From a virus: 23,030 nucleotides of DNA. The translations under genes and the position numbers were made by a program. Numbering within the stretch: position 1 is the stretch's first letter; each line of letters begins with the position of its first letter. The notes beneath the pieces were generated by a model. It saw only the letters and a program-made list of their open reading frames with translations, had not been told where the DNA came from and did no database searches. The DNA lies in the IMG/VR virus record IMGVR_UViG_3300045016_000365, positions 1-23,030 of that record; one strand, given 5' to 3'. Shown here in pieces: positions 20,701 through 23,030 of this stretch.

Positions 20701-20710
20701 TCCCACAAAT

Positions 20711-20744
20711 ATTTGCCGCGAATTTGCCGCGATGACGCGGCAAA
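20711..20744. repeat. ATTTGCCGCGA tandem repeat and inverted copy
   Basis: ATTTGCCGCGA occurs twice in a row (20711-20721 and 20722-20732), and the inverse CGCGGCAAA follows (20736-20744), so the second copy and the inverse form a 9-bp hairpin with loop ATGA. TTTGCCGC recurs at 20923-20930 beyond the tRNA half. Such repeats flanking the core are typical of integrase arm-type sites. Confidence 0.65.
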
Positions 20745-20756
20745 ACTGCCCCAAAA

Positions 20757-20774
20757 TGAGCAATTTTGAGCAAT
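20757..20774. repeat. TGAGCAAT direct repeat with 10-bp period
   Basis: TGAGCAAT at 20757-20764 and 20767-20774, centred 10 bp apart, that is, on the same face of the DNA. It may bind an excision factor or another DNA-bending protein at attP. The role is inferred from spacing and location only. Confidence 0.4.
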
Positions 20775-20784
20775 CGTGAAACCC

Positions 20785-20813
20785 TTGACGAATCCCCGCA
20801 AACGTAGTATCTA
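20785..20813 (+). promoter_or_regulatory. Possible promoter ahead of the tRNA half
   Basis: TTGACG (-35), 17 nt, then TATCTA (-10), ending about 19 nt before the tRNA 5' end. The -10 box matches the consensus at three of six bases only. If functional, it would express the tRNA reconstituted after integration. Confidence 0.35.
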
Positions 20814-20831
20814 TAGGCATTATTCGCCTTT

Positions 20832-20873
20832 GCGCCTGTAGCTCAGGTGGACAGAGCATCTGACTTCTAATCA
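20832..20873 (+). tRNA. 5' half of a tRNA-Arg(TCT) gene, truncated
   Basis: The sequence folds as the first part of a tRNA: acceptor strand GCGCCTG (20832-20838), TA, D arm GCTC-AGGTGGACA-GAGC, A, anticodon stem TCTGA, loop CTTCTAA with anticodon TCT at 20866-20868 and the first three bases TCA of the 3' strand. After 20873 it diverges and no T arm or acceptor 3' strand follows. The gene is not functional as it stands. The break inside the anticodon stem-loop fits integration at the anticodon sublocation. Confidence 0.85.
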
Positions 20874-20893
20874 TAAGTGAATATCAATAAAAT

Positions 20894-20914
20894 AAGGGGC
20901 TTAAGTAGCCCCTT
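20894..20914. terminator. Hairpin, possible terminator
   Basis: AAGGGGCT (20894-20901), loop TAAGT, AGCCCCTT (20907-20914); an 8-bp perfect stem. On the + strand a T run (20921-20925) follows after 6 nt, which is further than usual, so termination is uncertain. It lies just inside the right arm of attP and between convergent transcripts, where a terminator is expected. Confidence 0.5.
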
Positions 20915-20960
20915 GTCGCATTTTTGCCGCAGTGCTTATTTAATTTGCAGTGAAGTCTGG

Positions 20961-21179
20961 TCAGTGCGTAGTTGCATCCAGACAACTAATAAATTTAATC
21001 GCCCATTCGGGTACCGGGCTCTCAGCCTGCTCCCAGGCTTCAATGCGCCTGACGTTCACTCCCAACAGTTCAGCCAGGGCCTTTTGCGTGAGGCCCTGGC
21101 TCTGCCGGTATTGTTTCAGCCAATCAGATTTGTTCTGTAAGTCCGGCTTCATCGAATATTTGGCTGATTTGCATCTCAA
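20961..21179 (-). CDS. Small XRE-family HTH regulator
   Basis: 72 residues from the ATG at 21179, or 63 from the internal ATG at 21152. No clear ribosome site is found for either, so translation is probably coupled to the upstream gene, whose end it overlaps. SDWLKQYRQSQGLTQKAL and AELLGVNVRRIEAWEQ form a complete HTH: TQKALAELLGVNVRRIEAWE is the recognised pattern of Cro/CI- and HigA-type regulators. The C-terminal part PVPEWAIKFISCLDATTH is short. The gene lies last in a three-gene operon that starts at a palindromic promoter, so it may be an autorepressor, an antitoxin or an early-gene regulator. Confidence 0.8.
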   Translation of the reverse strand: MRCKSAKYSMKPDLQNKSDWLKQYRQSQGLTQKALAELLGVNVRRIEAWEQAESPVPEWAIKFISCLDATTH

Positions 21180-22252: not shown

Positions 22253-23029
22253 TTATATTTTTAGTTTTCCGGCAGCTTCTCTTAGGTGGCTTTCGGAGAG
22301 ATGGGCATAAATCTGAGTGGCTTTGATATCCTCGTGGCCCAGGAGGGCCTGGATGGTCTGCAGGGCGACGCCGGCCATGGCCAGGTGGGAGGCGAAGGTG
22401 TGGCGCAGATCATGGAGGCGGACGTGGGCGAGGCCGGCCCGCCGGGCGATTTTGGCGAACCGGTGGGAAGCGGCATCGGGCTGCCAGGGCCAGAGGCGCC
22501 CTACCTGGGGCAGGTCCCGGAGCAGTTCGGCCAGGGCTGAGGTGATGGGGAGCAGCTTTTCCCGGCGGGCTTTAGTGCGGCGGACATGGATCACCTGGCG
22601 GGGCCAGTCGATATCCCGGGCCTGGAGCTGCAGGGCCTCAGAGCGGCGGCAGCCGGTGAGGACCAGGAAACGCCACAACCGGGCATAACGGGGATCGGTT
22701 TCGGCGGCCAGGAGGCGCTGGATGTCCTCCCGCTCCAGGTAGCGGGGGAGGTGGCGGTGGTCTTTGATCTGCTTGAGGCCCTGGCCGGGATTGCTCCTGA
22801 GATAGCCCCAGGCCACAGCCCGGGCGAAGGCGGCTTTGAGGTGGCGCAGATAGGTGTTCCGGGAAATAATGCTGACCGGCAGATCGGCCAGGAAGATTTC
22901 CAAGGTGCGCCGGTCGATCTGGGCGAGGCGGGCCCGGGCCCCCAGGACCGTCAGGAGATGACCTAGAGCGGTGCGGTTATTTTGCCAGGTGGAGCGGGCC
23001 TGGGTCTTGCGGGAGAATTCCAGATATTC
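22253..23029 (-). CDS. Tyrosine recombinase (phage integrase), N-terminus outside window
   Basis: 258 residues are visible and the frame is open to the right edge, so the true start is outside (a TTG at 22903 is internal). The N-terminal SAM-like core-binding domain covers EYLEFSRKTQARSTWQNNRT to LRSNPGQGLKQ. The catalytic domain has all key residues: Arg128 in LTGCRRSEAL, Lys153 in RRTKARREK, His206 and Arg209 in HDLRHTFASHL, His232 in LLGHEDI and nucleophile Tyr241 in QIYAHLSE, numbered from the window edge. The AT-rich gap after the stop separates it from the next operon. It probably acts on the attP region 1.4 kb away, where its 3' end points. Confidence 0.95.
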   Translation of the reverse strand, partial: EYLEFSRKTQARSTWQNNRTALGHLLTVLGARARLAQIDRRTLEIFLADLPVSIISRNTYLRHLKAAFARAVAWGYLRSNPGQGLKQIKDHRHLPRYLEREDIQRLLAAETDPRYARLWRFLVLTGCRRSEALQLQARDIDWPRQVIHVRRTKARREKLLPITSALAELLRDLPQVGRLWPWQPDAASHRFAKIARRAGLAHVRLHDLRHTFASHLAMAGVALQTIQALLGHEDIKATQIYAHLSESHLREAAGKLKI

Positions 23030-23030
23030 C

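Follow-up and report, generated by a model that had tools for sequence, protein, structure and literature searches.

Why should a phage genome carry the 5′ half of a tRNA gene? The window, by which we mean the whole 23,030-nt stretch of DNA analysed here, is an IMG/VR virus record (IMGVR_UViG_3300045016_000365). Its positions 20832–20873 on the plus strand are nucleotides 1–42 of a tRNA-Arg(TCT), reading GCGCCTG TA GCTC AGGTGGACA GAGC A TCTGA CTTCTAA TCA. The half covers the whole anticodon loop (20864–20870, with the anticodon TCT at 20866–20868) and stops after 3 nt of the stem's 3′ strand, and the sequence that follows 20873 (TAAGTGAATATC...) is unrelated to a tRNA. Direct reading thus confirmed the first-pass annotation, which had described a tRNA-Arg(TCT) half ending at this point. 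The assignment is secure, because intact tRNA-Arg(TCT) genes in the phylum of a Desulfuromonadales MAG (G011) match the 42-mer with 3 mismatches. An Rfam RF00005 match runs from 20832 to 20920 at 29.3 bits against a cut-off of 29. We rejected this full-length call as spurious in its 3′ part, where a terminator hairpin is read as the 3′ half; the match is barely over the cut-off, and automatic annotation could misname the region as a complete tRNA. The features of the locus are as follows.

20711–20732, plus strand: left (P) arm, tandem 11-bp direct repeat, two copies of ATTTGCCGCGA, lag-11 match 8/8
20737–20744: inverted copy GCGGCAAA of the left-arm repeat
20785–20813, plus strand: promoter-like TTGACG, 17 nt, TATCTA, lying 18 nt before the tRNA half; weak alone
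20832–20873, plus strand: 5′ half of tRNA-Arg(TCT), from nt 1 through the anticodon loop plus 3 nt of the 3′ stem
20864–20870, plus strand: anticodon loop CTTCTAA, the presumed 7-bp strand-exchange overlap; loop entire in 5/5 halves
20892–20925, plus strand: predicted intrinsic terminator, 10-bp stem, 5-nt loop, TTTTT, z −3.7
20913–20934, plus strand: right (P′) arm, imperfect 11-bp direct repeat TTGTCGCATTT TTGCCGCAGTG, 7/8 at lag 11
20961–21179, minus strand: small HTH (XRE-like) protein, candidate regulator, between the putative attP and the integrase gene
22253–23030, minus strand: tyrosine integrase (PF00589), N-terminus cut by the window end

Phage late genes (head and tail) lie to the left of the half, and the HTH gene and the tyrosine integrase gene, both on the minus strand, lie to its right. 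The locus could be read as a prophage end (attL), with the half being a 5′ half displaced from the host gene and with chromosomal DNA to its left, or as part of a chimaeric contig, and an integrated relative (G397, described below) does have a displaced host half beside its integrase gene in exactly such a position. However, the left-hand DNA holds head and tail genes, and contigs from other assemblies join the window into a circle. One of them, G001, shares 9,885 bp with the window, including the half, which it has at 100% identity, and extends 12.8 kb (12,812 bp) beyond the right end. Two others, L008 and L015, the latter from another metagenome, each bridge the right end of G001 to window position 1 over an identical 2,327-bp gap, giving a circle of 23,030 + 12,812 + 2,327 = 38,169 bp (about 38.2 kb). 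Along this circle, assemblies from different metagenomes agree at about 99.5% or more. Given that the window, G001, L008, and L015 form one circle, the prophage-end or chimaera explanation is exceedingly improbable. The phage is contiguous through the tRNA half in two assemblies, and continuous phage DNA across the half therefore represents an excised, circular or circularly permuted form. Because the circle closes through the tRNA half, the site is best taken as an attP and not a chromosome junction. Both the attP and the circular, excised or tandem form had been proposed in the first-pass annotation, which had left room for chromosomal DNA to the right of 20873; by way of the circle, this DNA came out as phage DNA. 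No overlap was found between the window's own two ends, and a blastn search of a phage database with the window phage gave no match. Among the tail genes, the product of 9033–9698 matches PHROG 2913 'glycoside hydrolase' (E 8.3e-31).

The integrase gene adjoining the site matches PF00589 with an E value of 9.4e-30, and the full protein is 342 aa long (L002:5749-6777). The end of the half (20873) and the end of the integrase gene (22253) are 1.4 kb apart, with the HTH gene and further ORFs between them. A tblastn search against phages and plasmids revealed that all matches were below 60% identity, the best among the matches listed being about 28–34%. Apart from the phage itself, the three best integrase relatives in IMG/VR were L047 (48%), L048 (46%), and L049 (38%), and the best in 395 genomes of one phylum was G397 (46% by search, 44% by BLAST). 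In all four, a tRNA 5′ half lies beyond the 3′ end of the integrase gene, on the other strand, from tRNA-Lys(CTT) in L047 and L048, tRNA-Thr(TGT) in L049, and tRNA-Arg(CCT) in G397. Each of the five halves keeps the whole anticodon loop (CTTCTAA in the window, CTCTTAA in L047 and L048, TTTGTAA in L049, and TTCCTAA in G397, with T next in each), and identity to the tRNA stops 1–4 nt past the loop; from where it ends, we infer that strand exchange takes place in the anticodon loop. L047 has the same layout as the window, with an endolysin gene to the left of the half and the integrase gene to the right. The L048 contig has a 127-bp terminal repeat and is a closed genome of about 40.3 kb, with the half internal. 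No tRNA half was visible to the scan in another relative, L035/L041 (about 40%), or in L050 (35%), and when more phages with such a half were sought by pattern, the search returned only the window phage and L047. An orphan tRNA-Arg(TCT) 5′ half ending ...CTTCTAATCATAA, as in the window, was found at L029 1501–1542 (G025 C139:21080-21121), with 11-bp repeats (TTTGGGCAGAATTTGGGCAAAA) about 110 bp further on, in a chromosome contig with no related integrase; this is probably a decayed element of the window's type.

The recurrence of the half in related phages bears on a second explanation, that it is left over from the decay of a complete tRNA gene, phage-borne or captured, and plays no part in integration. 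In favour of this, tRNA genes do occur in phages, and the searches turned up no intact host locus for the window phage. Against it, the half has the same position and orientation, and nearly the same cut point, beside four related integrases and comes from different tRNA genes; arm repeats stand at similar distances in the relatives, and an integrated relative uses the half as its attachment site. A decayed remnant is thus very unlikely. The attP explanation, in turn, is supported by the fact that the nearest integrases found share the geometry of the window at three further tRNA genes.

The sequence TTTGCCGC occurs at 20712–20719, 20723–20730, and 20923–20930 and, inverted, at 20737–20744, so the repeats noticed on both sides of the half at first reading were found again at left and right. 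They fit candidate integrase arm-type sites. The left-arm repeat (8/8 at lag 11, p 0.008 by shuffling) begins 121 bp before tRNA nt 1, and the right-arm repeat (7/8 at lag 11, p 0.046 by shuffling) lies about 40 bp past the core. In all five sites (the window, L047, L048, L049, and G397), 11-bp tandem repeats stand at −119 to −131 from tRNA nt 1 and again at +34 to +41 past the core. The repeat sequences vary from phage to phage, yet recur within each site, a pattern expected of arm-type integrase sites. Individual p-values range from 0.002 to 0.29 across the sites and are modest for L047 and L048, and cross-arm 9-mer similarity, taken alone, was not significant.

Between the left arm and the half, the promoter-like pair of the window is within the chance range (p 0.186 vs shuffles), and a strong promoter in the window was accordingly dropped. 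The pairs of the four relatives gave p 0.081, <0.001, 0.074, and 0.011, all with a 17-nt spacer. As a set, the promoter-like pairs upstream of the five halves are suggestive, that of the window alone being a weak candidate. Downstream of the half, the predicted terminator at 20892–20925 would stop transcription coming from the half. Terminators were found in the window, L047, and L048. At L048 5965–6015 and L047 5020–5062 (minus strand), the anticodon stem pairs with phage sequence and a T run follows, which makes a predicted intrinsic terminator hairpin.

The same arrangement stands integrated in G397. Its intact tRNA-Arg(CCT) occupies C4:82717-82791(-). Another copy of the 5′ half, 42 nt long and identical, sits at C4:94951-94992(-), adjoining the integrase gene and 12.2 kb from the intact tRNA; the two bracket the element in the correct order and orientation. 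Outside it are chromosomal genes: a pgsA-like gene 55 bp past the tRNA and, beyond the displaced half, genes for tRNA-Thr, a lipoprotein, and lysA. The element (L039 7792-19950, 12.2 kb) has phage-like replication genes (O-like), RusA, and methyltransferase genes, and no structural gene was found among the ten element proteins scanned; it may be a satellite or a remnant. A tandem repeat, TGCAAGCAAACTGCAAGC, precedes the intact tRNA by about 119 bp and recurs about 39 bp past the displaced half; these arm repeats match between the two flanks (GGTGCAAGCAAACTGCAAGC), one reading GGGTGCAAGC... and the other TGGTGCAAGC... Because arm repeats stand both upstream of the intact tRNA and beyond the displaced half, the 5′ flank of this tRNA is element DNA, and it contains the promoter-like TTGAAG-17-TAAGAT. 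The first-pass annotation had predicted an intact tRNA with its 5′ half, and perhaps its promoter, supplied by the element, and G397 bears this out at the sequence level. A search for the empty site in the family of G397 returned lipoprotein homologues with no neighbouring tRNA and no empty site.

Taken together, 20711–20934 is very probably the attP of a temperate phage whose tyrosine integrase restores tRNA-Arg(TCT) from the 5′ side. The integrase would recognize the anticodon stem-loop of tRNA-Arg(TCT) and would bind the 11-bp tandem arm sites on both flanks, while the attP would bring a putative promoter, tRNA nt 1–42, and a terminator. Strand exchange in the anticodon loop would put the 3′ half of the host gene behind the promoter and 5′ half of the phage, with the restored tRNA at the integrase-distal end of the prophage. 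At the integrase end, the host promoter and the host's own 5′ half would come to lie next to the phage terminator, and the terminator may bar the displaced host promoter from running antisense into the HTH and integrase genes. The window phage would integrate at tRNA-Arg(TCT). The exact 42-mer was absent from the genome contigs searched. Allowing up to 3 mismatches, a search of 395 genomes of the phylum of G011 gave seven genomes, none closer than 3 mismatches, and a denser search within one order added one more, again with 3 mismatches; the genomes searched yielded neither a host nor a lysogen of this phage.

The orientation of the core separates these sites from those of more distant integrases. 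L042, L044, L054, L073, and L077 have tRNA 3′ halves on the same strand as the integrase gene. In both the 5′ and the 3′ types, the tRNA half and the integrase gene lie on opposite sides of the core, and the core alone is turned round. In L073, of the 3′ type, TGCGGTACATC occurs twice at both flanks and the core has the opposite direction; arm repeats were not clearly visible at the other 3′-type loci. Since L073 shares this type of arm repeat, it looks as if the core is inverted against arms that are fixed. On a labelled integrase tree, one change of orientation is enough, with the window, L047, and L048 forming a clade (support 97/96), and a single 5′-type clade including L049 is not rejected (AU p 0.167). 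A sub-question, compatible with the attP explanation, is whether the flip arose repeatedly in independent cases with no 5′-type clade. L049 (Thr) is not firmly grouped with the other 5′-type integrases, as repeated flips would have it, but the tree needs just one change, one clade is compatible with the AU result, and sampling is thin; repeated origin is possible but somewhat doubtful. We give an about even chance to the fuller proposal that, within one integrase lineage, a quasi-palindromic anticodon core was inverted against fixed arm sites, switching donation of a 3′ half to donation of a promoter and 5′ half, so that lysogens would express the host tRNA from a phage promoter while a phage terminator would silence the displaced host promoter. 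Relatives with about 59% identity in the capsid protein (G007 and G008; L018 2120-2160 and L019) have a tRNA 3′ half, apparently of tRNA-Pro, beside a different integrase, and the integration module has therefore been exchanged between structural relatives.

The 5′-half principle itself is already known. In Islander, islands with a 5′ tDNA fragment are rare, 159 of 3,919 (PMC4383910); the first-pass annotation had called replacement of the 3′ part the usual situation. The tRNA gene fragment in the window attP likewise takes in the 5′ end, the Islander elements also use a tyrosine integrase and carry the 5′ part of the target tRNA gene, and an anticodon-centred attP (site A) is one of the two Islander site classes. 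However, Islander merely counts such islands, whereas here a free phage attP has promoter-like sequence, a terminator, and arm repeats, and related integrases share their orientation at four different tRNA genes. In Thermococcus pTN3 (PMC5495485, PMC8371274), att is also a tRNA 5′ half and the restored tRNA is parted from its original promoter, but that element is archaeal, and its attP falls within the integrase gene, so that integration disrupts this gene; the window attP lies outside the integrase gene, 1.4 kb away, unlike that of a suicidal integrase. A review describes a tRNA detached from its promoter through use of the 5′ half as 'seldomly encountered in bacteria' (PMC8371274). Usual 3′-half integration (Boilgate, PMC10865867; here L073, L054, and L044) likewise has an anticodon-loop core, and L073 shares the kind of 11-bp tandem arm repeats found in the window, but 3′-half phages give a 3′ half, the tRNA keeps its host promoter, and the core is opposite relative to the integrase gene and arms. 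Fionnbharth, with tRNA-dependent lysogeny (PMC10865867), also integrates into an essential tRNA gene and provides for the tRNA. Phages of this type disrupt the tRNA, with a core of about 10 bp, and supply a complete tRNA gene of their own, whereas the long half of the window would restore the gene; ARAGORN detected no tRNA, and hence no phage-encoded tRNA of the broken isotype, in the window or in the contigs making up the rest of the circle. In the limited, open-access literature searched, we found no description of a group of related phage integrases with fixed arms, an inverted core, promoter-like sequence, and a terminator.

Restoration of a tRNA gene from its 5′ side would let the phage control how a host tRNA is expressed, in this case a tRNA reading AGA. 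The presence of related integrases at Arg, Lys, and Thr tRNA genes, together with relatives of the usual orientation that have similar arms, makes the change of core direction testable, as well as the question of whether prophages tune host translation.
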